From Parietichytrium sp. I65-24A (taxonomy: Eukaryota; Sar; Bigyra; Thraustochytrida; Thraustochytriidae): a stretch of DNA of 64,000 nucleotides. This document shows, piece after piece, positions 26,101 to 46,241 of the stretch (position 1 is the first letter of the stretch; the number at the start of each line of letters is the position of its first letter). A model generated the notes under the pieces. It saw only the letters and a program-made list of their open reading frames with translations, was not told where the DNA came from and ran no database searches. The position numbers and the translations under genes are program-made. The stretch covers positions 62,001 through 126,000 of the forward strand of contig BLSF01000072.1 of assembly GCA_012862575.1 (NCBI GenBank), written 5' to 3'.

Positions 26101-27691
26101 CGTACAGCCTTTGTGCCTCGGCGCTTGATCCAGACATGTTGAGAAGTTTGGAAATGTGGAATTTGCATTGAGACGCCTCCTCGTGCACCTTGGAACCAAG
26201 TGAAAGCAGTTCGTTAAGCTTGCAATTGTTGTGCCCTACTTTTTTCCAAAAGTTGGAGATGTGTTTCAGGGTGCTTTGCATGCTCGCCTTTGCGAGCTCC
26301 AGATGGCGATCGAGAGCCATAAAGGAAATGGCTCCCGCCAAGCTGTGCTGTCTCTCTTCATTTATACGATTGTGAGCGTAAAGAAAGTACTCTGTATCGA
26401 TTTGCAAGCTGCATTGCCCGGCTTGCTTGATCAGGTTGAGCGAATAGATGATCTTGTTTCCAGCGGAGGTTGCTAACGCTGCAACATAGAGACTTAGAAA
26501 AGCGGATCGCGGAAAGGCTGCTACTGCGGCTTTGTATGCTTCCTCTGCCTCCCCTGAAAAGCTGAAATTCCGCATATCCCTCTGGTATTTGAGGCGTAGA
26601 TGAAGTTCAACAATGTACGGTGACTGCAAAAGGATGACGTTTTGGGCGCACATCAGGCGGTGTGCACGGTGATGAACCATCGCACCGAGCGAGAACTGGA
26701 AGAACGGAAGTGCAACTAAGAATACAAACATGGCGCCATAGTCGTTTGAGTTCCCCACTGAGTAAGCAATGACCGCACAAACGCTTGCCCACAAATATAC
26801 AGCATGCGAGACGATAAAGAAGCGAGAGTATCGTAGCCTGTAGTGGGGGAGAAAGTATAGACAGCTCCAGATCATTCCACAAGCTGTAAGGACACAGAAA
26901 GTAAGAAGTACAGCCTGAATCTGCACTGTTGGGTGAGTTTCCGAATCTGTGTTGTATACACCAAGAGTTGCAACCATGGAGCCAATCAATAACTTGCACG
27001 CAAAATAGAGAGCATCTGTGCGTCCGTGCGGAGTAGGAAGCGATTTACTCTCCCGAAGCTTAAGGTTGGAGTACGGAACGTGATGCACGAGAAGCAGAGC
27101 CGCAAGAATGCAAATCACGCAATGCACGGTGAGTGCGATCGCTGCGACGATTTGCAAAGCAAAGAGAATAGTCGTGTCCCCGAAAAGTGAGATTGACGCC
27201 GAGCTGCTCAGCCCACCAGTGCCGCGAATTATGCGGATGAGAACTCCTGTCAGAGGTAATTGAAAACAGCCCTTGAGCAAATGCAAGCTCAGCCCAAGGA
27301 AAGGCAAGACGGACTTGTGAGAGTGGCGCTTCTCCACTGAGTCCATGCCCACGAAAATACCCATTCCGAGAGTCAATAGGATCCAAAGTATGAAGCCGAT
27401 TCCGAGTCCGAGAAGCGCTTTGTCGGATCGGAAGTCCCAGTATCCAAAATTGATTCCACTTAGTATCGGGAGCAACCAGGTTTGAAGTGAAGACGACCAG
27501 GGAAAGCCCACCTCAGCTGCGAAAGGGAAGCAAGCCAATTGAAGAGCAGACAGCAGCGTGTTACCGAAGAAGAAGCGCTCCCCAACGACATTGCGGAGCT
27601 GCACGTCATACGCCGCTCCAAATATGCCTTGCTTCAGCAATTCAAACGGCCGAAGCGTGGCGCGCTCATGCTGTGTGGCTGTTTCGATCAT
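23186..27691 (-). CDS. Large Tmc-like multispanning membrane protein with PAS domain
   Basis: This 1,501-residue protein has many hydrophobic segments in its first 400 residues, then a helical TPR/HAT-like region at about 400-540. A PAS domain at about 560-645 follows (MCSFFGYSKSDLVGRSVNIIMP). Residues about 770-890 are disordered. The C-terminal third has four membrane segments near 910, 1100, 1237 and 1447, enclosing two extracytoplasmic loops with paired cysteines. Both cytoplasmic flanks end in a similar IPAKICRLLQ / VPEIFSLLQ motif, which suggests an internal duplication. The arrangement matches the TmcB/TmcC (tiny macrocysts) family of Dictyostelium, ciliates and other protists. A sensory or signalling role is inferred, and no enzymatic output domain was seen. 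The start is the first ATG. Confidence 0.82.
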   Translation of the reverse strand: MIETATQHERATLRPFELLKQGIFGAAYDVQLRNVVGERFFFGNTLLSALQLACFPFAAEVGFPWSSSLQTWLLPILSGINFGYWDFRSDKALLGLGIGFILWILLTLGMGIFVGMDSVEKRHSHKSVLPFLGLSLHLLKGCFQLPLTGVLIRIIRGTGGLSSSASISLFGDTTILFALQIVAAIALTVHCVICILAALLLVHHVPYSNLKLRESKSLPTPHGRTDALYFACKLLIGSMVATLGVYNTDSETHPTVQIQAVLLTFCVLTACGMIWSCLYFLPHYRLRYSRFFIVSHAVYLWASVCAVIAYSVGNSNDYGAMFVFLVALPFFQFSLGAMVHHRAHRLMCAQNVILLQSPYIVELHLRLKYQRDMRNFSFSGEAEEAYKAAVAAFPRSAFLSLYVAALATSAGNKIIYSLNLIKQAGQCSLQIDTEYFLYAHNRINEERQHSLAGAISFMALDRHLELAKASMQSTLKHISNFWKKVGHNNCKLNELLSLGSKVHEEASQCKFHISKLLNMSGSSAEAQRLYATYLHYVMNDKKKSMEVLHGLQYRAAEHTGGYAVCTISGNWNTLGQIMDASHTMCSFFGYSKSDLVGRSVNIIMPSPFDRIHDDLIKHFLNGDAEFSTQTRRIFGIHRKGYIMPIDFVLTPSTNAQSDLILIGKLGTDVHLPENHHIIMVEAKSGYVTAGTQHCPDALDVDEHDMFALTLHITDLIPDFYEENFELRYKTETVCRINNHEFKVKATLVDYSRAKIECKVVMVKLQQLEDSPYYSVDPRVNPLNIRESRDDRIIAGNNSSADSEDRVYQTTLVERPHDMGRQQDGEPHSRGSGSPRHASFGHMSPKTDRHRGFGGGSSVGSSSVGDNAKGNVEISQIQKKIMSDLGKKDPQLQRFIRFAKRFVLCFWLVVVLQSVLQSQLYANLLSENEAMHTLHRCAYLIGLASAVTWFHFHVSPEISGSEGNYTMGLLNDLLIELKAEYTTAVEASEQALFYPSVVSAAFESPAYIEYIGTNDTRTVSFQVAVLDFVNNLEKLLGDLSESSDCGESCKFVINNGVYDIMQGGISLAQLYETRNEQALVRLSNFDVVSNSTILGLLVISFLIGYAPMFVGYGRKKRAIGMAFVAIPAKICRLLQTRSEKRLQQLQLDTEDLGDRDRIMNDDDLEDDEDEMEISDIFRRESELQTVKGKRSKIGLLRRLSAGILHHSSEGAESRLIRSDSFSVKLRHLLIAIIRIGISFWFVLIYMLITTWQDIGMRSQMASASAAVFESGYRLTLNGGLPFYLGHLGQSFDWEREGVEALMRDRASETLSQIDQQTYKLMYGNNVMPSFKATSGNLYSLYYSDLCTSECQEFALINKAATEVADDFRQGLNFAMQNYLHNAKVMLRALEAGKLSLAEELGNETLLLRPAAFLGLGLENSSSLYLEELGEEASELRSYKIKAGFTLFAFLLIGHVISLQAVSRTEKELKKTQTLLLMLPSEVFTKVPEIFSLLQSSSKSKRR

Positions 27692-29357
27692 CCCGCCAGC
27701 TGCCGCCCAGCGCACACACCGACCTTACGCTACTGAGGCCAGAACGCAATCGCAAGCAAATGGCGGCTCTCTTCTCTCATTCAGCAGCCTCCGGAGTTGC
27801 CTCTTCTGCCGCCTTTTCCATGCAAACACCTTTCTTTCTACTCGTTCTTTCCGTCACACGTACCGTTAGCACCAGTACCAGGTACCAGTTTCTTTCTCTT
27901 TCTCTCTCTCTCTCTCTCTCAACATACTCTCCCTGTCTCTGTCACTGCCTCTCTCAGCGCAAGTAAACTAACTTTAACGCATGAAAAAAAAATCCCTCTT
28001 TCTCTGGTTACAAAAAGGCATTGTCAGGAGCGCAAAATGGCAATGGTTATGTCCTCTAACCCGCGCCTCAATGTGCAGTGAACGCGAGGGAAAGACGGCT
28101 TAGTACTTTAGCCAGACTTTGCGAACGTTAGTGTGTTCGAGGAACGCCAGAGAAACAGGCCTCCGCCACTGTGACAATGCTACATCGCTCGCTCTTCCGT
28201 TTGTGAGGTATCCGTTGCAACTGAGATGTTCAACAGTTCGAGTCCTTTCCCGCTGCTCTTCAACAAAGGCAACTTCTATCGTGCACATAGTAGGGCTCCA
28301 TCCACTACTCAGTAGACATCACAGCTTCCAACGTCCGCCGTAGAAAGTGGCAACGCAGTTTGCGACGAGCTGCGGCAGCTGCGGCATAACCCGGCCACTT
28401 GCCGCAGTTCATCCAATGTCAATGTCATTGAATGAACATCTTTCCGTTTTCAAGTCTGCAGAGCTGAAGCAGCTGAAGCTCATGTATGGCCTGGAGAAAG
28501 GCCGGCAGGCGTTGATTTAACTTCAAGCAGGAAGGCATGCTCAAGCCGCAGATACGTGATGTTGCAACAGTTCACACAACAAAAACAGCTCAAAGTCTCG
28601 GAGTCTCCATTAACATTGATTCACTACCTCCTCCTGCTGTTGCTCCTCCTGCTGCTCCTGCATTGAGAAGTACGTTGCTCCAGGAAAGGAAGCAAATGGA
28701 AAGATTGAAACGCTTCGCTTATTCAGTGACTCTGTGACAGATTCGAGTCGGCCCGGACCCCGTAACGGTTAAATCTCTACACACTAGACGTCGCTAAGCC
28801 TTCCGATATCATAGTACCCATATATCACTCGTGGTAATGATGCGGAAACAGTATGACAGGCACACCATACAGTACCGAGCGCGAATCTTCTTCAAAGCCG
28901 TGAATTTTCTTTTTTGTAGAATTTAGAAGGGAAGCAAGCACCCGTACTACAGTACTACTATATTCGCTTACTGGTAGATCGATGGGTGAACAAAAGAATG
29001 ATCGTGGAGAATGTGACCCAAACATCACCACCTCGCTCACCCACCACCACACCAACACACGCGGTGTTCCGTAACAACCGCGCGCCTGTCCCCGGTAAAC
29101 GGCCAGCCAATTGCCCAGTCGGCGGCTCGCTCAGCCGTTCACCGCCGGAGCTTTCTCGCGCGCGTGTCTCCTATCGGACTTGGCGGACCAGTGTGTGCAC
29201 GGAAGGGCAAGTTTTAATCGTGCGATCTGCGAGGTTCGGTGACCAACGGCGTTCGATTCCTGGATTGTGAGCCGTTTACGCGCCATTGGAGCTCGGGCGC
29301 GAGGAGTCCTGCTGAGAGTGGCATCTGCACGGCCCGTTTGGTGCTTGTGGTGGTGCT
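27692..29357. other. Divergent spacer between Tmc-like gene and FAN1
   Basis: A CT run lies near 27898-27920. The segment 28740-28990 is rich in CTA/TAG and GTAC. Several short frames around 28340-28740 are too small and lack similarity. The last 300 bases probably contain the FAN1 promoter and leader. Confidence 0.55.
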
Positions 29358-32300
29358 ATGCTTGACCCGCGACCTGCTCTGCGTCTCCGCCGTGCCAAGC
29401 GGTCCCGGTCCTTGGGTTCTTCGACGGGTTCTCCGGCTGTGCTTGTAATACCGGAATCATCTGGCTGCACCTTTTTACGCGAGAGCAATAATGGTCCAGT
29501 AGAACCTGCCGGTTCTTTAGGAGAGGTTGCTGATGAAATCAACGTTTTGGCTGGAAATGGTGCACGGGATCCGGTGAGAGAAGGTACAGGAGAACCGGGA
29601 GCGCATGCATTGGAGGTAGAAGATGAAGAACCGGAAAAGGCGAAATATTGGGACAAGAATAATGCTTATCGAACGCACTTAGAGATTGTGTTGCGAACGG
29701 TGTTTTGGGAGCGGAAAGACTGGGCTGCTTTGTTCAGTGAAGAGGAAATACGCATGGCGCAAACTATTTTGGAGGAGTGCGGCAACGATTCCAGGTCACT
29801 ATTGTCAAGAATACATTCCAGGAAAGGACCGTGGTTTAGAGTTGCAGAGCTGAAAAAGTATTTTACGAAAGGGAAACGAGTCATCCAAAAGCGGTCATCA
29901 AAATCTTCTGTTGAATCTGAGATTAGATCTCACCGGCAACTTTCTCAGCAAAATTCCATGGGATTCGAAGAAAGTGGGCTGAGCAAGGATGATAGCACCA
30001 AGGAGTCGGACTGCGCTTTCGAAACTGCCCAATCGCCGGCTTCCTTGACTGGAAGCTCGGAAAGTCGGGTTGACTCAACAGACGGCAAAGCCACCAAAGT
30101 CGAAACGAATCGATCCGGAGACAAGTCTGCTAGAAGTGAGGCGTCCGAAACGAATCGATCCGGAGACAAGTCTGCTAGAAGTGAGGCGTCCGACACCTTG
30201 GCGGATGAAGGAGTTGCGACAGAAAAGCTTACTGCTGCTGTGGAGGAGCTGGCCAGTTTGAAACTCGCCTGCTTGCTCCTGACCGGAAAGGAGAAAAATA
30301 TCACCAAAGATGCTGCTGTGGATGCTGCAGAGTGCGCAATGACCTCTGCGGAGATTCAAACTGTTCTGAAGCGAATGAAAGTTTCTTCCAAGTCAAGCCG
30401 AAAACGATGTGCGCCAACGAAGCAAGAAGCGATAGGCATGCTGAGGGATGTAGCTCGAACGCAGGGTAGTTTGTTCGGAATGGGGTGCCCGATTGCCAAA
30501 CATATAGCGGATCAAGTGCCGATGGGGTTCATAGCTCTCAAAGATGACGTAAAACTTCTTTTGTCGAGGGCGTTCTCTCTCTACTACCTGTCCAGCTCAG
30601 ACTCCTCCTTCCAATCTCCTGACCGTGGCAGAAGCTCAGAAACAAAATCCTCCTCGCGGAACTCGAGCGGTGGAGCAGCCTTCAACTCGCCGGGATTGCT
30701 GGCCACCTTTAAGGTACTCAAGTTTGAGAAATATCGTTGCAATGCTGAGTCCACTATCTTCGCTTCTCGGAAGCACCTAGAGTTGTTTGAGCTTGCTGTG
30801 GCAGTGAAAAGATCCATGGAAGGATTCATGGAGCATCGTCAACTTTCACGAAGTGATAGCGATAGGAGCATTCGAAGTAGCAGCAGCAGTTCTGGAAAGG
30901 TGTCGAATGACGCGAAGCAGACCAGCTCGGCAGCGCCGCGGTATTCGCAAGTAATATGTCTCGATGGTGACGACGAAGTTTCGCAAGAAGGGGCGCCATG
31001 GGTGATTGAACACCGCGCCATTTTTCCTGTAAAGGAAGAGGTAGGGCTCGCCACGGAGGTTATTAGGTCGTTCGTTGACTTTCGTACCCAACACGAATGC
31101 GTGGAGTACTTGCAAAGCTGCGGCGAAGCGCGGTTTGTTGAGTGCATCACAAACTTCATGGACGATTACGAGAAATGGCGAGGAGTAGCGCTGAAAAGCT
31201 GCCCGAAGCTACCTCCTTTCCTTTCCCAGTTTGACCCGGCCTTCGTGCTTGGCGAAGCGCTTCACGAGATAGTTCCGCTTATCGAAGCTGCCGGAAACTA
31301 CGGCGAGGCCGTCCGTGTGCTCCGCCTGCTTTTAGATTCGTTTCCCCAGTCCAGGCGGACCGGCGGCTGGTGGAATCGTCTCGCTGTGGACCTCAAGCAT
31401 CTCAAAGATGTAGTAGGTGCTTGTGAAGCATGTGTGGCCTCTCTTCTGGAACAAGGCGTCGGTCCGTATCATGCGACCAAGATCGAGGCTCGTGCACGGT
31501 TGATAGGGATTCTGAAGCTAAAAAACACGCCGTCCTTTCCCATAGCTACCGAGATTCTGGAGGCCTTTAGAGACGTCCCAAAGGAAAGTGACATCAAAGT
31601 TGAGTATTTATTTGGGAAGGTGAAGGAGAAAGTCTCAAAGCAAGGGGAAGCCGTTTACGGCCGTTGTGAGTTCGTTAGCCCCCTGGACTCATCCAATATA
31701 TTCTGCTCGGTTGAACAGTACGTAATAGACCACTACAAACTTGAAGGCGGGTGGACTGGTCACCATGCAGAGGGTTCTGTGCTCCTCTCACTCTTTGCGA
31801 TCTTCATGTGGGACGCCATATTTAACTGTGAGGTACCGGATGTCTTTCAAACAGCCTACCAGGGCGCTCCGCTCGATCTGAGCCACAGCTACGGGCTGTT
31901 CTATCAGAACCGAAGAGAACAGATCGACAGTATCTTGAGTGATCTGGAGAAATGCTCGAGACGAGACCTTGCAGAGAAAGTGCGTTGCTCCTGGGAGCAG
32001 CACTACGGAAAGCAAGTATGCGGTCACCGATGGGACCGGTTCTCTTGCGGGGCAATGGAGTGCATCGCGGCGTGTGCGGGTCCCAAACTCGTGTGTGCTA
32101 TTCTGAAGCGTCTAGCAACGGATTATCGCCATTGGTGCGGAGGTGGCCCAGATCTTGTGTTGTACCGGATTCGCGATGAGAGTGGTGTAGCCTTGGAAGT
32201 TCCAGGCCCTGTATCTCGTGAGACGGTTACAGATGCGGTGGATCTTGACCTCACCCACAGTAACGAGGAACGGAAGAGGCGGCGCGCTGGTTCTTACCCT

Positions 32301-32495
32301 AATCATGACGCACAGCACCCGTCAGACCTGGAGTTTCATGAAGCTTGGACATTCGACATAAAGTTTGTAGAGGTGAAGAGCAAGAACGATCGGCTAAGCG
32401 ACAAGCAAATAGGCTGGATATTCCTTTTGAATGAGACGGTCCCAGGGTCTTCACTGGTGTGTAAAGTAACTGACAATGTATCTTCTGGCACCTAG
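29358..32495 (+). CDS. FAN1: FAN1-type structure-specific nuclease
   Basis: FAN1 is a nuclear 5' flap endonuclease/exonuclease that repairs interstrand crosslinks. The 1,045-residue protein carries the family blocks in order. An N-terminal RKGPW segment lies near residue 155, a SAP-like/helical region at about 300-420 and a TPR-like region at about 620-780. The VRR-NUC core runs from about 795 to the end. Catalytic residues are visible as Glu805 (HHAEGS), Asp932 (GGGPDLVLY) and Glu1005/Lys1007 (FVEVKSKNDRLSDKQ). Asp and Glu are separated by 72 residues instead of about 14 as in the human enzyme, because of an Arg/Ser-rich insertion. No UBZ zinc finger is visible at the N-terminus. A perfect 45-bp tandem duplication (30102-30191) lies in a disordered stretch. 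Confidence 0.94.
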   Translation: MLDPRPALRLRRAKRSRSLGSSTGSPAVLVIPESSGCTFLRESNNGPVEPAGSLGEVADEINVLAGNGARDPVREGTGEPGAHALEVEDEEPEKAKYWDKNNAYRTHLEIVLRTVFWERKDWAALFSEEEIRMAQTILEECGNDSRSLLSRIHSRKGPWFRVAELKKYFTKGKRVIQKRSSKSSVESEIRSHRQLSQQNSMGFEESGLSKDDSTKESDCAFETAQSPASLTGSSESRVDSTDGKATKVETNRSGDKSARSEASETNRSGDKSARSEASDTLADEGVATEKLTAAVEELASLKLACLLLTGKEKNITKDAAVDAAECAMTSAEIQTVLKRMKVSSKSSRKRCAPTKQEAIGMLRDVARTQGSLFGMGCPIAKHIADQVPMGFIALKDDVKLLLSRAFSLYYLSSSDSSFQSPDRGRSSETKSSSRNSSGGAAFNSPGLLATFKVLKFEKYRCNAESTIFASRKHLELFELAVAVKRSMEGFMEHRQLSRSDSDRSIRSSSSSSGKVSNDAKQTSSAAPRYSQVICLDGDDEVSQEGAPWVIEHRAIFPVKEEVGLATEVIRSFVDFRTQHECVEYLQSCGEARFVECITNFMDDYEKWRGVALKSCPKLPPFLSQFDPAFVLGEALHEIVPLIEAAGNYGEAVRVLRLLLDSFPQSRRTGGWWNRLAVDLKHLKDVVGACEACVASLLEQGVGPYHATKIEARARLIGILKLKNTPSFPIATEILEAFRDVPKESDIKVEYLFGKVKEKVSKQGEAVYGRCEFVSPLDSSNIFCSVEQYVIDHYKLEGGWTGHHAEGSVLLSLFAIFMWDAIFNCEVPDVFQTAYQGAPLDLSHSYGLFYQNRREQIDSILSDLEKCSRRDLAEKVRCSWEQHYGKQVCGHRWDRFSCGAMECIAACAGPKLVCAILKRLATDYRHWCGGGPDLVLYRIRDESGVALEVPGPVSRETVTDAVDLDLTHSNEERKRRRAGSYPNHDAQHPSDLEFHEAWTFDIKFVEVKSKNDRLSDKQIGWIFLLNETVPGSSLVCKVTDNVSSGT
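30102..30191 (+). repeat. Perfect 45-bp in-frame tandem duplication in FAN1
   Basis: Units 30102-30146 and 30147-30191 are identical and encode ETNRSGDKSARSEAS twice. Identity at silent sites indicates a recent event. Confidence 0.97.
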
Positions 32496-34438: not shown

Positions 34439-35632
34439 ATGGCTACCAAGTTCAAGGGTGAGTGACGAATGCACGAATGCACGAATGCAGGATGGACGAT
34501 GCACGATGGACGGTTGATTTGCCTTGGATTGGCTTTCTCATTCACATTGGACGGTATCCAAACGCGCGCGAAATGTGGATGTGGGAATGTGGGAATGTGG
34601 GATGTGGAGAGATGGAGTGCGGGAGCATGTGAGATGATGATTGATGATGGGTGTGTCTGTATGACTGACAGAGTTGTTCGTTGATGTGTGATGGAATGTG
34701 CGCAGATGTGAGCAAGTATGCTAACGACTTGCTCGGCAACGACTACCTGTTCGATGCTCAGAAGATCAAGATCGTAAGTTTGTTGTTGTTGTTCGAGGTC
34801 GAATTGGCCGGGAGAAGCGCAATTTTGATTGATTCGGTTGCTGACGGCCTGCCGTGTTTTTGTTATGCGATGATAGAACACCAAAACCGCAAATGGAGTG
34901 ACCTTCACCACTGAGGGAACCCTCAAGGGCAAGGGAGCTAGCGGCAAACTCTCCGCCAAGTTCACCCCATTCCCAGGTATTGCCATTAAGAAGCTCTGCG
35001 TGACCACCGAGGGCCGCTTCCAGACCGAGGCATCCCTTGAGAACGCCATGGAGGGCGTCACCTTCACCGTCAAGGCTGAGGAGGGTGCTGAGAAGCCACC
35101 AGCTGGCGAGCTCTGTGTCGACTTCAAGGCGAACAACACCACCGTCAACGCAAGCGTTGATGTGTGCGATGCTAGCGGCCCATCTCTCTGGGGAGCCACC
35201 ACCTTCCAGTACGACAACTTCCTCGTCGGAGGTGAGGTCAAGTACAACACCGGCTTCGACTCCAAGGACACTTCCCCAGCTATCGTTGACTACAACGGAG
35301 CTATCGAGTACCGTGGCCTCGACTTTGTTGCTTCCCTCCACACCAAGAAGAAGGCAACCAACCTCACCGCAAGCTACCACCAGCTTCTCTCCAAGAACGT
35401 GGAGGTTGCTTCCACCTACAACCACCCATCCAAGCTCCTCACCTTCGGAGCTCTCTACAGGCTCGATGCCTTCACCACCCTTCAGGGCAAGCTCAACTCC
35501 AAGGGAGTCGTCTCCGCAAACGCCATCCAGACCATCAGCCCAGGCGTCAAGCTCATCACCTCTGCAGAGGTCGACGCCAAGACCTTTGGCGGCGAGAGCC
35601 ACAAGTTCGGTCTTCAGCTTGTTCTCGGGTAA
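34439..35632 (+). CDS. VDAC: Mitochondrial outer membrane porin VDAC, three exons
   Basis: The exons are 34439-34457, 34706-34773 and 34877-35632. The introns are 34458-34705 and 34774-34876, with GTGAGT and GTAAGT donors and CAG/TAG acceptors. The spliced product is 280 residues, the typical VDAC length. It starts MATKFK and continues DVSKYANDLL, the N-terminal helix that sits inside the pore. The rest alternates short beta strands and ends KFGLQLVLG, which fits the C-terminal beta-signal for outer-membrane insertion. VDAC passes ATP, ADP and metabolites across the mitochondrial outer membrane. Codon use is very biased toward C- and G-ending codons (AAG, GAC, ACC, CTC) compared with neighbours, as expected for high expression. 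Confidence 0.96.
34458..34705 (+). other. Intron 1 of VDAC
   Basis: GTGAGT donor, GCGCAG acceptor, 248 bp. It follows a 19-nucleotide coding exon. It contains ATGCACGA-like near-repeats. Confidence 0.92.
34774..34876 (+). other. Intron 2 of VDAC
   Basis: GTAAGT donor, GATGATAG acceptor, 103 bp. It joins KIKI to NTKTANGV in phase 0. Confidence 0.92.
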
Positions 35633-35951: not shown

Positions 35952-38900
35952 TTACCGAAGCGAAGCTTGTGACGTGAGCGTCTGATCTTTAATTATCGCG
36001 AGGCGGACCAGGTCTTCATAGTATCGCAGCGATCTCTCGCTGGTGTTGAGTTTCGGCATCTCAAACAGCCCTTTGTCGACGATCGACCTCCCTTCTCGGA
36101 TCATCTCCGATGCGCTTATGATTCCTTGCTCTTGCGCAAGAAGCTCGGTCATAATTTCCCGATGTCGCTTCGCACCAATGTGCGCCTCGTTCAGCTGCCC
36201 AAGCCCGCCTGGCCGCTGCAAGAGGGAATCTAACTCGCGCTTTCTGATCTTGAAGTCTCGAAGCCTGTTGTTGCCTTGGTGGATCATCATGTATCCTTTG
36301 GCGATGTTGCGCTGCGAATCTTTCTTCTTCTCCACACCTGCGTTCTCTCCCTCCAGCGCGGCATTGCCGCCGCTTGGGAGTCTCACCAGCGAGCGGCTTA
36401 ATGCGTTAAAGGTCCAGTTCAAGACCAATCGAATGACTGAGATGTGTTGCAGCTCTACAGGAGTTGAGCGATCATAACGCATTCTCAGTGCTAGCTTGTG
36501 CGAACGCTTCAGGGCACTGCGAACGTCTGCACAACGCATCGCCAGGACAGTGTTGAACTGCCTTTCATGCGACCTGCGCTGCGACTCAATGTAGGCCAGC
36601 TGCTCTTCCACCGTCTCGGCACCGTCGGAAGAGGACACCTCGTCCAACAAAGTGTCCTTTCTGTCCATCCAGCTTCGCGAAAACACGTTAGTCTGGTCGA
36701 CTTGGCGAAGCACCACTCCGAGAGATAAGATTGACGTCTCACTTTCTGCGCCGTGAAAACCGATAATGTATTCTTCCTCGAAGCGAAGTCTGCCATTGTT
36801 CGTCCGTTCTCGACTTGAAGGAAGCATAAAGCGCTTTCCTCCTTCACCTTGACCATACCAAGGCGACACGCGGCCCCGATTCGTTCGGAACCTCACTTTC
36901 CCTCCGACAACATGATCCAAAGCAAAGCCCTCCATACTCTCTAGCTTTTCGGTCACGCCGTCTAAGAGAAACTCAAATACATTGAGACCAGGTTCGCCGG
37001 CAGACAGCTCGGCGGGCTTGCCGTCGTCGTCGTCATTATGCATCGAACTGCCAAGGCTCTTTGGCCGATAGCCATGTATTGGCAACAAGAAAAGTTTTGG
37101 GGCCGACGCTGTGCCAGAGTGCATCTTGAGCTGCAAGCTTACAACCATTCCATCGGACACTGCCACAAGGACCGAGCGGATGCGCACGGCGGGCCCGCAG
37201 CTTCGTTCTTGGAAGATCCGTGCGCCCTCAACCTTTTCCAGATCAAGTCCAACTGCTGGACTGAGCTTGTCGTGAAACACGACCGTAGCGCGCTCTTCAA
37301 ATGCAGTGCTCAAAAGTCGGGTCTCCAGCGCCAATCTGGCTTCGGAGATGGTCTCGTGCCACCTCAAGACGTGCTTCAGGATATCCATTTCCTTCGACTT
37401 GCTCCGAACTGATTCTTTGGTCTTTTTATGAACGAAAGCATTCTGGGCACGCAACTTGGTCGAGAGAATATGTTTCTCTTTGCAAAGCATCTTGGTTTTC
37501 AGCCTGTCAATGTCATACGCTGCTCTCTTCGACAGGTATGGATGGTTCGCTTGGCGCACGTCCAGAGTGTGCCTTGACTTGAGCGCTGTATTCCAGGCGC
37601 TCCAGCAGCGCTGCAAGGTTTCCCCACGGAGCCTTTCTTGGAACAGGTTGACGAGTTGGCGACGCGTAGCGCTTTTTTGAGTGTATTCCGTCCAGCGTAA
37701 AAACCACGACTTGGCCACCAGTCCCTCGCTGACTCCTGTAGAATTCCTGAGATGAACACTGTACAGCTGCAGAATGGTTTGGCGGCGATTTAGCTCGTCT
37801 CGAAGTGCCGGCGATTCGTATGTGTACTTGTTGTCCACAAACAAGAGCCACTTGTTGAAGCACTGCCACTTGACTTTAAGATGGTAGAATTTTGGCATTG
37901 CTCGCCAAATTTTCCGAAGTCGCACACATATCCTGATCCAGTTCATCAGCCTCTTGCGTTGAAATATGCCGAATGATCTGCGAGCAACCACTGGAAACCT
38001 TAGGCTCCTAAAACATTGTCGCACCAGCCGCTCGACAGTGTCCATTTCGACCTCTTCCATCACGTTGTACAAAGCATCGTGCAGCAATCTGCCACGCATT
38101 TGATGCAGCTTATTTGCATGCTCAAGTTGAAGACGCTTGGACTCTTCAAGCTCACTCTGCTTTATGGCCAGAACGTCCGCAACTTGGATGGCGCTGCGCC
38201 GCGCGTTCTCCCTAGCAGCTTCCATGCGTTCCTCATGAACTTTGAGCTGAGTGTCGCGAGTCACCCGCTCCTTCTTGAGAGCCTCTGCTTCTTTGGAAAA
38301 TGTGAGTAGCTTTTGTCTGCGCCATCGTGCATCTTGTACCCATTGCTCCCGGGAGCCAAGCTTTGGCGATGTTGATTCTACATTTTCTGCTGCCTTTGCC
38401 ACTGCTTCTCCCTTGCCTGCAGCGCTTTGCTTAGAGGACACTCCAAGTTTGCGACCCCGAGGACCCTGAGCACTCTCGCTCTCCGCCGCAGATGACTTGT
38501 GCTTGGAAGACTTTGGAGCGCTTCCGGGAATCAACAAAGTCTTTCTCGGCTCAGCTGCGCTGGGCGCGCGACCTCTGCGCTTACCCTTCACACCAGCGAG
38601 CTTCATCCAACCAGCAAATGATTTAGAGAGCTCTCGCCTCACGTAATGGTGCCATGCATACCTGTCCTTTTGCCGGTCCTCCACGTACATCTTCCAAAGC
38701 TCAAACACCTTCGGGCCAGCAATGTTCCGTTGAACGCACAAGAATGCCCTCTCTAGACGCTCCGCTTCTAAGAGGGTTTTGCGAAACGCCACACACTGCT
38801 TGCGGAGAACCGTGTCCCTTGTAAGAAGCTCTGCTCCAGCAACGCCGACGAGATCGCGCAATAGAGGAAAGTCAGGAATTGTATCATCTGCCAATTCTTT

Positions 38901-41261
38901 ATAGTGCCGCGGGTTGAGGCCCAAATCACTTCTCATGAGCTTGACCTTGAGAATAAAGAGATATGGGACGTAATTGTAGTACGTGAGCGATCGTGCCCTG
39001 CACGCTTTACTGCCGCTCGCATACAATCGCCACATTGTCCACGTCTTCAGTTGCATCCTCTGCGTGACTCGGTCCTGAATAGCTCTCCCGCCCGCTTCCC
39101 AGCGCTCTTTCAAGTAGCGCTTGTGGGCTACAATACCTTTCCACGCATTGAATTGGAGTTGAACTTGCTCGTGAAGTTTTGTCGAAAGCTTTTGCTTCAT
39201 TCGTCGTGCAAACTGGCGTGACCGGGTAGTCTTTTGCTTCCACGCTCGAAAGTGCCTCAAGAGCCAAAAGGTTGTCCAAACTCTTTTCAAGAATTTGGCC
39301 TTGTTTCTTGCGTTAAGGCGCTGAAACGCCCACCGCCTCCAGATAAAAAATGGCCAAAAACAGAATCTGAAAAGCTCCTTGTGGGCAATATTTCGTTGTG
39401 CAAGCCTTCTCCAATGGAAAAAGTACCGCAAGCAAACTTCTCGCAATCGGAAACGGCTCTTGCTGATTGCAAACCACTTTGCCATCAGACGCTTTGCCTT
39501 AAACAACACGTGTTTGGCAAGGACAGACTCCTGGAAGTAATACCTGGCATTCGTCCGAACGACGTAGCCCCGTCCAAGACACTGAATTTTCCTCGCCGCA
39601 GCCCGCTGGACCAAAGCTATTGCATCTGCGAGCGACTTCTGAGCTTCCAGATGCAAAAGACCGTCTTCGCCTTCCAAGCCGACAGACTGCATTTTATGAG
39701 GGGCCATTGGAAACGTGGGGATGTCGCTTGACGTCCCCAAAAAGGATGCACTACCATCCAAAAGACCAATTATAGCGCTACTCTTCCGGACGGCTCTCTC
39801 CCTTAGCCAATCGCGATCCATCTTGCGAAGGTAATGGGCAGAAGTGCCAGCAATATCTAAGAGCATATCGGTACTATATGAATCATGCCCTCCGTTTGGA
39901 ATCCCTTTCGTACGTAGAGAAGCCTTAATCTTCTTCTTCAGCCTCATGACTCTTCGCATGTAAATTTCCAGTTCTGTCATTTCCTCGTGCTCGATGTCCC
40001 ATCGCTCCTGAACCCCAACACGAGAAAATCGCGGAGCGGCGGCTTCAGCGAAAGCCTCGCGTTCAAGCTCGGCATCTCTTGGTGTTGGCGGAATAAAGTC
40101 AAGATTTAAAGGGCTGCCCGCGAAAGCCTCTCGAATTGGGCCAGGCGCAGACACTTCAGGCACGGCTCTATGTGCCTCCTCTTGATCATCCTCGTCAATG
40201 CAAACGGAGATAAAGTCCTCCACGTCTGAGTCCGTCTCGTACGGGTCGTCTGCCGAGTAATATTGATTATGGAAATCCATGTACGACACAAGATCCTCGC
40301 CGGGCAGCAGAGTTTGAGAAGCGCGAAGCACCACTCTTGCAACGTGGGGGGCAGTAAGACCAGTCGCCAAAAGGTTTTCTCGCAAGTCACGAAGGCCAAG
40401 AACACCACCATTCCGGTCGAAAGACGTTTTAATGAGAAACCAATTCCTTCGTATTGCAAATGCCTGAACGTCTTCCGCGGCATCTTTTGCTCCAATCAAC
40501 GCATGAGTTCGGGGCAAATGGTACGATTCTGCCGTCACGTGAGCAGTGCTAGGTATTCCAACCCGATTTACGAGCCTTTCCCTTACCTGCGCACCGTCTC
40601 TGCGCGCTCTGGCCATTGCGATGACAATATTATCTATTCTTCCATCTCTCTCGCGTTCTGCCATTTGCTCTTCAGATAAGAACCCACTTGGTTCACTCTG
40701 AAATCCCGGGGATCCGATTACCGCAGCGTTTTGCTCTCGATCGATCTGTTGCGGAGATGCTTTACGTTGGTCGTGATGTGTAGTCTTCCATAGTTGCTGA
40801 AACAAAAGAGCTGCGAGGTGCTCCTCCTTCTCCAAGTTGACCCAGCTCGGAATATTGCTCTTCTCTGAGGGCTTTTCCAATGCTGAAAAGGCAAGCGTTT
40901 TATCCAGTGTGGGCTCGCCCCTCGCCACCTTCCGCTGCTTCTTGTTTGGACTCCGCGACTGCTGCACCCCTGGCAGATCGTACCACCCCACGCCTTTGTA
41001 GCCCGACTTAATTCGCTCAAACCACGCCGGGCCGTCAAAGTCATACCTCGATTTAATGCGCTTTTGATGCGCACTTTCGATACGGAGCAAGTCCGACTCT
41101 GCCGATCGCGGCGGAGAGCGAATGCGCTCGAGTGGTTCAAGCCCTGGTGACCTGGCGCGAGGCGCATTCACATCTTGATGCTGCTGCTGCTGCTGCCGCC
41201 GTCGCTGCTGCTGCTGCTGCTGCTTTTCCACAGGCGACCTGGCGATGGGACCTAGCCTCAT
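35952..41261 (-). CDS. Sfi1/IQ-repeat protein with jacalin-like domain
   Basis: This 1,769-residue protein begins with a polyglutamine/Arg tract (CAG repeats) and a disordered segment. Residues about 275-345 resemble a degenerate EF-hand pair. An IQ motif (KIQCLGRGYVVR) lies near 560. Clusters of basic helices with spaced Trp/Phe (for example FFHWRRLAQR, HFRAWKQKT, QFNAWKGIV, CFNKWLLFVD) at about 590-750 and 1090-1195 look like Sfi1 repeats, which bind centrin along centrioles or basal bodies. A coiled coil spans about 980-1060. Residues about 1350-1520 match a jacalin-like beta-prism domain, with VRFRTNRGR, a Gly-rich turn and YIIGFHGAES. About 250 helical residues follow. I infer a centriole or basal-body protein. 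The jacalin part is unusual. The start is the first ATG. Confidence 0.78.
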   Translation of the reverse strand: MRLGPIARSPVEKQQQQQQRRRQQQQQHQDVNAPRARSPGLEPLERIRSPPRSAESDLLRIESAHQKRIKSRYDFDGPAWFERIKSGYKGVGWYDLPGVQQSRSPNKKQRKVARGEPTLDKTLAFSALEKPSEKSNIPSWVNLEKEEHLAALLFQQLWKTTHHDQRKASPQQIDREQNAAVIGSPGFQSEPSGFLSEEQMAERERDGRIDNIVIAMARARRDGAQVRERLVNRVGIPSTAHVTAESYHLPRTHALIGAKDAAEDVQAFAIRRNWFLIKTSFDRNGGVLGLRDLRENLLATGLTAPHVARVVLRASQTLLPGEDLVSYMDFHNQYYSADDPYETDSDVEDFISVCIDEDDQEEAHRAVPEVSAPGPIREAFAGSPLNLDFIPPTPRDAELEREAFAEAAAPRFSRVGVQERWDIEHEEMTELEIYMRRVMRLKKKIKASLRTKGIPNGGHDSYSTDMLLDIAGTSAHYLRKMDRDWLRERAVRKSSAIIGLLDGSASFLGTSSDIPTFPMAPHKMQSVGLEGEDGLLHLEAQKSLADAIALVQRAAARKIQCLGRGYVVRTNARYYFQESVLAKHVLFKAKRLMAKWFAISKSRFRLREVCLRYFFHWRRLAQRNIAHKELFRFCFWPFFIWRRWAFQRLNARNKAKFLKRVWTTFWLLRHFRAWKQKTTRSRQFARRMKQKLSTKLHEQVQLQFNAWKGIVAHKRYLKERWEAGGRAIQDRVTQRMQLKTWTMWRLYASGSKACRARSLTYYNYVPYLFILKVKLMRSDLGLNPRHYKELADDTIPDFPLLRDLVGVAGAELLTRDTVLRKQCVAFRKTLLEAERLERAFLCVQRNIAGPKVFELWKMYVEDRQKDRYAWHHYVRRELSKSFAGWMKLAGVKGKRRGRAPSAAEPRKTLLIPGSAPKSSKHKSSAAESESAQGPRGRKLGVSSKQSAAGKGEAVAKAAENVESTSPKLGSREQWVQDARWRRQKLLTFSKEAEALKKERVTRDTQLKVHEERMEAARENARRSAIQVADVLAIKQSELEESKRLQLEHANKLHQMRGRLLHDALYNVMEEVEMDTVERLVRQCFRSLRFPVVARRSFGIFQRKRLMNWIRICVRLRKIWRAMPKFYHLKVKWQCFNKWLLFVDNKYTYESPALRDELNRRQTILQLYSVHLRNSTGVSEGLVAKSWFLRWTEYTQKSATRRQLVNLFQERLRGETLQRCWSAWNTALKSRHTLDVRQANHPYLSKRAAYDIDRLKTKMLCKEKHILSTKLRAQNAFVHKKTKESVRSKSKEMDILKHVLRWHETISEARLALETRLLSTAFEERATVVFHDKLSPAVGLDLEKVEGARIFQERSCGPAVRIRSVLVAVSDGMVVSLQLKMHSGTASAPKLFLLPIHGYRPKSLGSSMHNDDDDGKPAELSAGEPGLNVFEFLLDGVTEKLESMEGFALDHVVGGKVRFRTNRGRVSPWYGQGEGGKRFMLPSSRERTNNGRLRFEEEYIIGFHGAESETSILSLGVVLRQVDQTNVFSRSWMDRKDTLLDEVSSSDGAETVEEQLAYIESQRRSHERQFNTVLAMRCADVRSALKRSHKLALRMRYDRSTPVELQHISVIRLVLNWTFNALSRSLVRLPSGGNAALEGENAGVEKKKDSQRNIAKGYMMIHQGNNRLRDFKIRKRELDSLLQRPGGLGQLNEAHIGAKRHREIMTELLAQEQGIISASEMIREGRSIVDKGLFEMPKLNTSERSLRYYEDLVRLAIIKDQTLTSQASLR
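41179..41224. repeat. CTG/CAG trinucleotide tract encoding polyglutamine
   Basis: On the minus strand this encodes two Gln runs separated by Arg residues near the N-terminus of the Sfi1-like protein. Pure CAG runs of this kind are length-variable. Confidence 0.93.
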
Positions 41262-43082
41262 CGCCGTGCACCACAAGACCCACCAGACAAGCTAGTCCGC
41301 TCGCACGAACACATGCATACAGCTCTCTGTGCTTTGCAGAACGAATTCGTCAAGTTCCAGGTCTCCAACACGCGACTGAATTCCTCGACCACCGTGAGAC
41401 GCGACTCTCTCGGTCAGCCGGCCAAAGCAATTCTGGCAGCAGTCGACACCGTTTTTGGTCTCCGTTTCCCAAGACGACCTTCCGTGTGCACGTGAGCATG
41501 CGCTTTCGAACACGTTCGGTGAAATCTTCTGCTCAACAACTTGAAGATCTACGCGAGCAAGTGCGCGTGCATGTGTCCGCGGCGGATGAATGCCCGCTGC
41601 GTACGTCACTGCTGTTCAATGAGATATGAATGGAAGGAATGTAATTATAATCAAGAGAAATAAATGCTCGATGTTCATTGATTGATGGATAGACTTTTTC
41701 AACTCAAGAAACCAAACAAAGCAAAACGAATAGATAAAGAGAGATGACCAGAGTAATTGAATGTTCACGTAACTTTCCACATTGGACTTGCGTTGCTGTG
41801 CCACACCTCGTACATAAACATGTTTATTTACATATGCTAAGTTGAAGTACACTTCAACTTGCGCATTGCCAAGTGCGCATTGACCGTAACGGTCTTCGCG
41901 AGTCCTATAGCGCGCTCTAACCATCCCTACAGGAGAACCCGTCCGTGGAGGTGGCAGCCTCGGCCGGTTCCATCTGCTGGGCCAGTATGGAGCTGGGCCT
42001 GGAACCGAACGAACAAGGAACTGATCGACAACGGTCATAACGGACGGAACCCAACTGTGAGACTTTCTTCATCTTTCCACTCTCATTCATTGATATTGAT
42101 AGTCAGTCTCACGCAGTCTCGTTCACTCCGTCTTCACAAGTTCAGGGCTTGATTCACATGAAACTAACCAACAAACAAACTGACTCAGAATAAAAGAATC
42201 TAAACGTGAAAGTCATAATGCATGGATGAAGGGATGGATGTCAACCTTCGTAAATTTCCTTTTTACGAACGATGTTCATTGAATGATGAATGATGATTGA
42301 TAACATGAAGATTGATTGAAAAGCGATAAACGAATGAATGTTCATTGATGAAGAATGAAACAATGAACTAACTATCAAAGTAAATGATATGTAGTACTAG
42401 TGAAAGTGCCGTAATCGCTCAAGAGCAAACCAAACCAAGCAAAGCGACCAAGAGAGCAAGACCAAGACCAAGAGAACACGTTGAAAGTATAGAGTGCAAA
42501 GTATACAAAGTTTAAAGAGAGTCAAGTCGGGAGCTTTAAAAGCAGGAGCGCAAGGCGGTTGGTTGAATTCACAGCGATTGGCTCACAGACGGACGGACGG
42601 AGAGAAGGAGAGGGAGCAAGGGACAGGAGCGCCTGACCAAGTGAGTTGAACGATCGGTCCCGCAACCGTCTCGGCAATCCCAGCGATTGCATATATCAGA
42701 TTCACCCCATTCATCCCACGCATTCCAGCCTTGCCGGCCATTTCATCCATCGAATAGAACAAGGTGGAGCTGGACAGGTCGCTTGACTTGCAGAGGGATC
42801 GGAGACGCATTCACTTTCGCAGTCGCGGTTTCGCTGTTGGCATTAGGCTGCTTGACTCGGTGACTGCCTGGGAGCCACGGTCATGACGGATAGGTGAGCT
42901 GCGAAGAAGATCGACTGTAAACCTCGTTTGATTGATTGCTGGTCGAGTCTCCCAGGCCTCCTGCTCGCCGGTGTGCGTGTGCCTGTTGTGCGTATTGCGG
43001 GTTGTGGCTCTTCTTCCTTCAGAGTTTGGTTGTCTGTCTTGTTGTCCGGTTTCTCTCTCAGTGACTGAGAGAGAGCGGTGTC
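41262..43082. other. Divergent spacer of two ciliary/centriolar genes
   Basis: This 1.8-kb region lies between the 5' ends of the Sfi1-like gene and CFAP221 and should contain both promoters. It contains many GAATGAA/TTCATTG-type imperfect repeats at about 42270-42370 and a GACGGACGGAC run near 42590. A frame on the plus strand at 41132-41629 overlaps the Sfi1-like 5' end and looks spurious. No X-box motif was identified by eye. Confidence 0.55.
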
Positions 43083-46000
43083 ATGGCGGAGCGTGGGCCC
43101 GCGGACTTTGTGCAAGAGCCTCCGGCGGTTGGCGGGATCTTGGAGCTGGAAGATTGGCAAAATAAGCAGCGCTGGGCAGCAGAAGATGCGGTGCATTGTC
43201 CGATCAGGGTGTCGCCGTCGGTGGTACACTTTGGGGGCTATACGGTCGGAAAAAACCACTACATGAAGGTGAAGATCATTAACACCACGGCTGTTGCTGT
43301 GCGCATGCGGCTGTTTTGCCCGCGGACTGAGGAATTCGAACTTAACTATGAGAAAAAGGGCGCCTTGGCGCCTGGCATGGCTCAGGTTGTGACTCTCAAA
43401 TTTCGCCCCACGGAGTGGAAGTATTACGCGGATTCATTCAGGATCGACTTTGGCAGAGAGAGCGAAGACATCATCGTCGTCCCCATTCACGCGTACCCGG
43501 TTGTGAACACGGCATTGTTCCCGAGACAGATAGACTTTGGTGTGTGCGAGCTTGGCCAAACCCATACCGAATACGCGGTGCTTGAGTGCAAGGTCCCAAT
43601 TCCTTTCGAGTATGAGATTCTGGAGCTTTCCAAGCACAGTAATTTTACAATCACACCGACCAAGGGAATTGTTCCAGCGAACGACAAAGTAGTTATCAAG
43701 GTGGAGTACAAGCCCTCGCACATGTCATTGGCAACCACTTCGTTCCGTCTGGTGGTGGCGCAGTACAACTTTGAACCCATCGTGTGCACAGTGACAGGGA
43801 GCTCTTGCTCGGGGATAACCAGAGACCGTATGATCGACGAAAACAGAGAGCGGTTTCACCATGAAATTGGCTCTGACCCTAAATTAAGCACGCAGTTGAA
43901 GAAGAGCCTCAAGGACACGATCTTTGAATCGTACGCTCCGCCAGTGCACCGCAAGCTTCGGGGATCTGGGTCTGGGGCGATTCTGGATCCTGGGGCAGTC
44001 GTGTTGGATCGGAGTGCCAATCAAGTCGAGGACGATGACGACGTTAAGAAAGCAATCAAGAACGACGAGGAGTGGAAAGAGCGGGATGCACAGGAAGAGC
44101 CGCAGAAAGTGGATGACGAGACCGACGGTATTAACGTTGACATTGACGTCAACGCTCAAAGTGATAGCGAGCTGAGTGACGACGGTTCAATTGCCATTAA
44201 CGGAATCAAAATCCCAAGGCGACTGCAAGGAGTGCAAGCTGCGAATTATGTGCTAACTCAAGAAGCAGGAAAGCTAAAGCCAAAGGATCTCTTGCGGGAG
44301 ATCGAGCGTCAAAGAGCCGAACGTGAGAAAGACAAACGGCGGAAAGAAGATACGGAGCGGAAATTAGCACAAGCTGGAGCAAGCGGTCAGAACGACCCCG
44401 CCGAAACGATTATGGCGACGGAAGCTGCGATGTCGGATCAATCCACGACACTGCAGGTGAAGGAGATGGTGTTTCTCCAGAAAATGCAGGAGATCGAGGA
44501 GGAGGAAAGGTCGCGTGAATTTTCCAGTCAAGCTGTTTGCCTCGGGGACACGCTTCTCACGACTGAACAAGTAAACAAAATCGAAAGCGCAAGGGTTGCT
44601 CGGTCTCTAGAGCTTGAGAGGAGCATCCGGCGCGAGCAGAGGCAAGCCTGGACTCACGAAAAGTTCGGCCCGGAGAGTACTCCTCCTGTGCGCGTGCAAT
44701 GTGTCCTCCCACGCGCAGATGCAGGAGAAGATCAAGATACGACAGAGAACTCGCTCGGTCGCTCGGGCGTTTGGAAGCCGACGTTTGATTCTTTCGAAAA
44801 CAACATGTGGCCTCGTCGGAAAGCAGTGATGTCCAGATTCATTGAATTTGCCGGGAAGGTAATCATAAGAAATCGCGGGCGTCGAAGATTGGCAGCGATC
44901 TGGAACCGCCTTGGGAACTCGAGGTCCAAGAAAGCTGTCCGAGAGCTGGTCGAAGAAGATCATATACAGCACAAGCTTGGAATGGGCCAATCAAAATCTG
45001 CTTCGCACGACCGAGCTGGAACTGTCCCAGAGTGGAAGTCATATCGGGAACACTTGCTCAGAATTTGTTCCCAAAAAGGCAACTCCGGGCAGGTGAACAT
45101 CCTTGTTCAGTCTTCGCTGGTGAAGGATCCTTCCGCGCTTGAGGCCGCAGAAGGCGTGGACCCAAACCAAGGCGGAGATCCAAAGGACGTTCCACGACCA
45201 GGAGAAGAGCTGTCGCAGCAAGTGGCCGTTAAAGCTCTCGAAAAGGAAGGCGTTCACATACCGCAGATTTCCGTTGTGGATATTTCCAGGGCTACTCTGA
45301 AAAATGTCGAAGACTTGCACTTGGTCTCCTTTCCGTTTTACAACGACAGCACCGTTCTGGAGAGCAGCGCAGTCCGCTCAAACCCAATTCGAGGTTTTCA
45401 AGACTTGTCCTTCTTTCCGCTGCGGACCGCAGAGGAATACAAGCTGTGCGGATATTCAAAGTTTGAATTTCCTGCTCTCGTTCAATACGTGCCCAAATTT
45501 GACGATATGCCGGTGCTGTCAGCGGCAGAAGAGGAGTCTGTCTGGGGCAAGCCGAAAGAGCAGCTCATGGACTATGGAGAAGCGTGCATCCCAGTGTCAT
45601 ACCTGGCGGATACTTATAAGCCACGTTTCGAAATGGTGCTCCCTCCCCGCGCTTTCAAGGAATTTCAGCGGGTGGATTTTTACACCGAAAGCGACCCAGA
45701 ATTCTATTTGCAGCCGGCGAAAATTGACTTTGAGCCTCTTGAAACCCTCGGTTCGAGCTGGTCGTGGGAGACAGGAATTTGCACAGCCAAAGCTATCGGC
45801 ACAGAACCTACGATCAGCGATTTATGGCAACAAAACACCGCGCCATACAGTAGAACGTATGCATCTCGCTGGGATTGCAAAGCCACGCTGGAGCGCATGA
45901 AGAAGGGGCCGGACCCAGAGGAGCTATTGAGCGAGGACGAGGATAGCGATATTGAAACGAGCGAAGCTGACGAGAGCCAAGACACCAGCGAGGAAAACGG

Positions 46001-46241
46001 CCAAAGAACCAACCCATTTTCTCTTGCTGCTGCTGAAAATTTATTCGGCCCGGTCAACGCTGATGTGCCCACAAATTTTCGGCCAGAAAGTCCTCACGAG
46101 ATCTATCACAAAGTGTGTCTGGCGGCTGAGATCGTGCAGGAAAGGTCGAAACGTATGTTGTCCTTGCACGCACAGTTGGAAGCATGCCAAGCAGAGATTA
46201 AGAATCCACTCTTGGCATACAAGCTGATGGTGTTTCAGTAA
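43083..46241 (+). CDS. CFAP221: Cilia- and flagella-associated protein 221 (Pcdp1)
   Basis: This 1,052-residue protein matches CFAP221/FAP221 along its length, most clearly at residues 35-260. That part holds ASH/MSP-like immunoglobulin folds with the blocks VHFGGYTVGKNHYMKVKIIN, FRPTEWKYYADSFRI, VVPIHAYPVVN and CTVTGSS. In Chlamydomonas and mammals this protein is part of the C1d projection of the axonemal central pair, binds calmodulin and controls beating. The middle (320-560) is acidic and coiled-coil. A basic WTHEKFG to RRRLAAIWNRLG section follows, then a conserved C-terminal half. Its presence is good evidence that the organism builds motile 9+2 cilia. The ATG lies directly after an in-frame-free GA-rich leader. 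Confidence 0.93.
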   Translation: MAERGPADFVQEPPAVGGILELEDWQNKQRWAAEDAVHCPIRVSPSVVHFGGYTVGKNHYMKVKIINTTAVAVRMRLFCPRTEEFELNYEKKGALAPGMAQVVTLKFRPTEWKYYADSFRIDFGRESEDIIVVPIHAYPVVNTALFPRQIDFGVCELGQTHTEYAVLECKVPIPFEYEILELSKHSNFTITPTKGIVPANDKVVIKVEYKPSHMSLATTSFRLVVAQYNFEPIVCTVTGSSCSGITRDRMIDENRERFHHEIGSDPKLSTQLKKSLKDTIFESYAPPVHRKLRGSGSGAILDPGAVVLDRSANQVEDDDDVKKAIKNDEEWKERDAQEEPQKVDDETDGINVDIDVNAQSDSELSDDGSIAINGIKIPRRLQGVQAANYVLTQEAGKLKPKDLLREIERQRAEREKDKRRKEDTERKLAQAGASGQNDPAETIMATEAAMSDQSTTLQVKEMVFLQKMQEIEEEERSREFSSQAVCLGDTLLTTEQVNKIESARVARSLELERSIRREQRQAWTHEKFGPESTPPVRVQCVLPRADAGEDQDTTENSLGRSGVWKPTFDSFENNMWPRRKAVMSRFIEFAGKVIIRNRGRRRLAAIWNRLGNSRSKKAVRELVEEDHIQHKLGMGQSKSASHDRAGTVPEWKSYREHLLRICSQKGNSGQVNILVQSSLVKDPSALEAAEGVDPNQGGDPKDVPRPGEELSQQVAVKALEKEGVHIPQISVVDISRATLKNVEDLHLVSFPFYNDSTVLESSAVRSNPIRGFQDLSFFPLRTAEEYKLCGYSKFEFPALVQYVPKFDDMPVLSAAEEESVWGKPKEQLMDYGEACIPVSYLADTYKPRFEMVLPPRAFKEFQRVDFYTESDPEFYLQPAKIDFEPLETLGSSWSWETGICTAKAIGTEPTISDLWQQNTAPYSRTYASRWDCKATLERMKKGPDPEELLSEDEDSDIETSEADESQDTSEENGQRTNPFSLAAAENLFGPVNADVPTNFRPESPHEIYHKVCLAAEIVQERSKRMLSLHAQLEACQAEIKNPLLAYKLMVFQ

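Follow-up and report, generated by a model that had tools for sequence, protein, structure and literature searches.

The window, that is the whole stretch of 64,000 nucleotides analysed here, contains on its minus strand an open frame of 5.3 kb, uninterrupted by stops, which holds all of the domains described below (Table 1). The ORF tool places its start at a TTG, while the first in-frame ATG corresponds to residue 6, and the true start is uncertain. A search of the whole genome (42.5 Mb) recovered the protein as one stop-free match, and no second copy was found in it up to an E-value of 10 (2 candidates scored). No N-terminal hydrophobic stretch or signal peptide is apparent by eye, given the uncertain start, and a cytosolic placement would fit this. 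The 3' end of the gene faces the 3' end of a eukaryotic porin (VDAC) gene (34898-35632, plus strand). Three further ORFs were noted in the window: one of 1052 aa (43083-46241, plus strand) with CFAP65/HYDIN/ASH-type Ig domains, likely a flagellar protein and located near the gene under study; one of 1045 aa (29358-32495, plus strand) with FAN1-type TPR and VRR nuclease matches over cut-off and a weaker FAN1 HTH, in which the short direct repeat ETNRSGDKSARSEAS is seen twice by eye; and one of 1509 aa (23186-27715, minus strand) with TmcB-type TPR repeats and a PAS domain.

Table 1 Features of the studied gene, in window coordinates, with the basis on which each was assigned
Feature	Position	Strand	Basis or remark
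Studied gene, single open frame	35952-41276	minus	1774 codons + stop; all domains inside
Degenerate EF-hand-like loop DRNGGVLGLRD, residues 287-297	40386..40418	minus	pattern match only; without Pfam match
One IQ motif, IQCLGRGYVVR, residues 564-574	39555..39587	minus	pattern match only; without Pfam match
W-repeat block 1, residues 600-760 (W622, W646, W679, W712, W746)	38997..39479	minus	motif and spacing analysis
W-repeat block 2, residues 855-895 (W861, W890)	38592..38714	minus	motif spacing
W-repeat block 3, residues 1105-1235 (W1113, W1143, W1195, W1228)	37572..37964	minus	motif spacing
Jacalin-like domain, residues about 1362-1530	36687..37193	minus	Pfam fragments and genome-derived profile vs shuffles; outer limits by eye
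Asp-rich insertion in first Greek key, residues about 1387-1422	37011..37118	minus	by eye and alignment gap pattern
Pfam Jacalin-matched part, residues 1416-1521 (model 40-135 of 136)	36714..37031	minus	Pfam PF01419 on fragments
Jacalin core VRFRTNRGRVSPWYGQGEGG, residues 1461-1480, best-conserved stretch	36837..36896	minus	alignments and profiles

The Pfam family PF01419 (Jacalin, curated cut-off of 22 bits) was matched by four fragments of 181, 199, 216 and 300 residues with 26.1, 25.6, 25.2 and 23.6 bits, respectively (E-values of 1.3e-5 to 7.3e-5), and membership by score is confined to these fragments of 181-300 residues. With 500 or 774 residues or the whole protein as query, Jacalin was unreported even at E-values up to 10, LtuB (E 0.36) being the sole family reported for the 500-residue fragment, and a genome scan with PF01419 at E-values up to 0.001 returned three other places and not the studied domain. 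The HMMER speed filters and length correction probably explain why the longer queries and the genome scan miss it. Scans of the whole protein against Pfam and NCBIfam gave nothing useful, and the domain had no NCBIfam match. As an independent check, a profile was built from the three remaining jacalin domains that the genome encodes. It gave the studied domain 21.1 bits and the whole protein 17.6 bits; shuffled sequences (500 of the domain, 50 of the whole protein) reached 5.1 bits at best. The alignment to this profile extends over just 28 columns around the FRTNRGR...YG.GEGG core, and an hhalign comparison of profile and domain gave 25 firm columns and a poor global alignment. The firm portion in these alignments is VRFRTNRGRVSPWYGQGEGG. 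By eye, the first strand pair of one of the other domains, L001 (RVQKIVVRSGALVDSITFYY), is matched by residues 1364-1385 (VRIRSVLVAVSDGMVVSLQLKM), while the aligner placed these otherwise.

On the strength of these scores, residues about 1362-1530 are confirmed as a divergent, weakly matching jacalin-like domain, as the original prediction had proposed for the C-terminal part of the product; the Pfam match holds for fragments of 181-300 residues and was not recovered with longer queries. The peptides quoted in that prediction also lie where it had put them, in one minus-strand frame (FEFLLDG at residue 1434, base 36977; VRFRTNRGR at 1461, base 36896; YIIGFHGAES at 1503, base 36770). The domain would be expected to adopt the beta-prism I fold. 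A single-sequence AlphaFold model was uninformative (mean pLDDT of 32.9), so that the fold is deduced from the sequence alone. A search with the jacalin-domain alignment returned one Streptomyces locus from 14 stretches matched in genome contigs and no locus from 18 stretches matched in viral contigs; relatives are thus too few for structure prediction to be supported by an alignment.

The Sfi1 consensus consists of hydrophobic-xx-W repeats at a spacing similar to that described here, and W-rich repeats of this sort bind the calcium protein centrin. Residues 600-1240 contain 14 hydrophobic-xx-W motifs, with W itself counted as hydrophobic, for a shuffle mean of 8.1 (51 of 5000 shuffles reach 14). 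Eight of them have a partner 23-37 residues downstream (shuffle mean of 1.3, reached in 1 of 5000), and the longest chain at this spacing, a range picked after the W positions were seen, comprises five motifs (11 of 5000). Five forms of the motif were also compared with shuffles on residues 600-1260. Wxx-hydrophobic occurs 17 times (mean of 6.6; 0 of 2000 shuffles), the stricter Sfi1 motif [LFIVMY]xxW[KR] is mildly enriched (5 vs 1.5; 29 of 2000), [LFIVMY]xxW without [KR] occurs 11 times (vs 7.2; 147 of 2000), and two longer forms occur 2 times (vs 0.4; 147 of 2000) and 4 times (vs 3.0; 715 of 2000). Residues 600-760 are rich in Arg and Lys, with 1 Pro and 4 Gly. With HMMER filters on, neither the whole protein nor its fragments matched the Pfam Sfi1 family (PF08457), and no match to the IQ and EF-hand families was found at E-values up to 10. 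A further Sfi1 profile comparison was equally without a match, but 14 controls were silent too, so that absence is not demonstrated. A SecA2 match to the repeat region (NCBIfam, E 0.019; score 13.2 bits, cut-off 930) was taken as coiled-coil noise. The description of the product as an Sfi1-type centriole protein therefore has partial support: the motif and spacing of the repeats are like those of Sfi1, while the Sfi1 profile is unmatched and the centriole location is presumed.

Jacalins hold their sugar with a GXXXD motif close to the C terminus, and griffithsin binds sugar through motifs of this type. The third-key motif of griffithsin is GDYLD, where the studied domain reads GAESETSILSLG, without an aspartate by eye; the third-key GXXXD of a sugar-binding jacalin lectin is accordingly missing from it. 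The first key reads DGMVV (residues 1375-1379), again with no GXXXD by eye, which brings the motifs lost to two of three. By the same inspection the middle key keeps one, GFALD (residues 1450-1454), followed by a Gly-rich loop, so that one sugar site may survive. In the alignment with the other jacalins of the genome, five extra residues (HVVGG) stand directly after GFALD. In an excerpt of PMC6362431, the residues given for carbohydrate-binding activity include a leucine, a tyrosine and an aspartate of its motif M3. Judging from these motifs, classical lectin activity is unlikely. Between the two roles initially considered for the domain, glycan binding becomes doubtful, with its first- and third-key motifs gone and GFALD remaining, and a reuse of the jacalin fold for protein contacts appears likelier.

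Elsewhere in the genome, SAS-6_N exceeded its cut-off at two places, and there are at least 149 EF-hand matches (149 of 150 scored, the best 150 of 461 candidates). From their sequences, we read one ORF (in L008) as a probable centrin and another (in L007) as a probable calmodulin. The host is likely a flagellate or a basal-body-bearing eukaryote. We favour, with a probability of roughly 0.6, a reading of the protein as a large scaffold in the cytosol, of the centrin/basal-body or fibre type, in which a centrin- or calmodulin-binding rod of W repeats would carry a jacalin-type docking head. The W-rich repeats, presumably helical, and the one IQ motif would bind centrin or calmodulin along the rod, and the degenerate beta-prism near the C terminus would serve in docking to proteins and not as a lectin. 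The uninterrupted frame, the jacalin scores of the fragments and a W spacing that is rare in shuffles, all direct observations, are taken in favour of the scaffold, as are the SAS-6_N matches and the centrin-like and calmodulin-like ORFs. The loss of GXXXD from two keys counts for docking over a lectin role. Against this reading we count the absent Sfi1, IQ and EF-hand Pfam matches, the mild enrichment of the strict motif, the choice of the spacing range after the W positions had been seen, the retained GFALD site, the fusion without a homologue and the uninformative AlphaFold model.

Part of this architecture would disappear if two genes had been misread as one, with an intron or a separate promoter splitting off the jacalin part. 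We regard this as highly improbable: the two regions share, as originally claimed, one stop-free frame, which runs to 1774 codons, and GC is lowest at the second codon position, as for coding DNA, in 14 of the 17 100-codon stretches, including all seven from residue 1001 onward (the deviating ones start at residues 201, 601 and 901). The jacalin match itself could be due to chance or to a different beta fold, an Ig-like domain for instance, which would agree with the silence of the longer queries and with a firm profile alignment of 25-28 columns only. In PDB sequence searches, moreover, the whole protein returned mostly beta-2-microglobulin (best 60 of 78 matches), and phmmer with the domain gave the same protein at E 0.005 at best, over residues 1488-1536, while the best 60 of its 123 matches include no jacalin lectin. 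This likeness spans 49 residues and many of its rows are near-copies of one protein, and it was rejected as chance over a short stretch. Since none of the 550 shuffles comes near the real score, Pfam assigns four fragments to Jacalin and none to an Ig family, and the FxTNxGR..YG.G.GG core is common to the studied domain and the three clear jacalin domains (one of the three without the R), a spurious match is very unlikely.

Other readings concern what the two parts do. The repeats could reflect a likeness to W-rich helical proteins at large (IQ, myosin-like), and the product would then be a calmodulin-regulated scaffold unrelated to centrioles. The unmatched Sfi1 profile and the one IQ motif are in line with this, as is the PDB sequence search, where the repeat region finds its best match in part of a plasmodial myosin heavy chain (E 0.044), while the hydrophobic-xx-W spacing of 24-37 residues, as in the Sfi1 consensus, argues against it; we hold it to be possible though somewhat unlikely. 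It overlaps with the preferred scaffold, and the odds assigned here do not sum to one. A working intracellular lectin, bringing the scaffold to glycosylated proteins or membranes, would make use of the GXXXD kept in GFALD and the Gly-rich loop next to it, and griffithsin, the solved protein closest to the L001 domain, does bind sugar with such motifs. The GXXXD motifs gone from the first and third keys, the HVVGG inserted immediately after the remaining one and the lack of a signal peptide apparent by eye make such a lectin distinctly unlikely. A narrower version, in which a glycan reader in the cytosol, mounted on a centrin rod, uses its GFALD/Gly-loop site to recognise a sugar-modified component of basal bodies or fibres, is extremely improbable; if true, it would couple calcium-driven contraction to glycosylation state.

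Returning to the preferred scaffold, no paralogue or relative was found in the same genome or in viral contigs. In the latter, the 1 stretch matched by the domain and the 91 stretches matched by the whole protein gave no confirmed relative. No paper on a fusion of W-repeat/Sfi1 and jacalin parts was found among titles and abstract beginnings, in listings that are partly incomplete and cover few subscription journals, and jacalin is not mentioned in the excerpts of PMC5795050. PMC7355776 was rejected as an account of it: in the excerpt available, the name SFI1 denotes an RxLR effector of Phytophthora, and the jacalin mentioned is an adhesion protein. The same architecture could well be listed already in domain databases such as InterPro, and we consider W repeats with a jacalin-like domain to be a modest new domain combination. 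Were the fusion conserved, it would mean that a lectin fold has become a structural part of the centrin cytoskeleton, and would offer an entry point to lineage-specific proteins of basal bodies or fibres; confined to one species, it would be an ordinary case of domain shuffling. The genome encodes a second jacalin fusion, with the domain of L001 (L001:1285-3312, G000:C68) lying N-terminal to the TMEM129-like part (PF10272, which we take to be a RING-type E3 ligase family) of a membrane protein. Its unrelated partner favours the modest view. No paper combining jacalin and TMEM129 was found in the literature searched, and L002 and L003, which carry the other two domains, have no match to a further Pfam family at E 0.01 within the stretches examined.

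Compared with Sfi1 and Sfi1-like proteins (PF08457), the studied protein shares the hydrophobic-xx-W motifs at a spacing of 24-37 residues and, in residues 600-760, the Arg/Lys-rich composition with few Pro and Gly, whereas it differs in the unmatched profile, the interruption of the repeat blocks and the addition of a jacalin-like domain. The other jacalin domains of the genome are sound (43.9 to 70.1 bits; E 1.4e-11 for L001 against griffithsin). They are likewise set within longer ORFs and have the FRTNRGR and Gly-rich loop core in common with the studied domain, but score higher than it does. Jacalin-related lectins at large (PF01419, which includes the plant jacalins and griffithsin) are matched by the studied fragments over model positions 40-135. 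The domain departs from them, by eye, in its degenerate sugar-site motifs and in its Asp-rich (about 36 residues) and five-residue insertions, and also in its setting, inside a large W-repeat protein.
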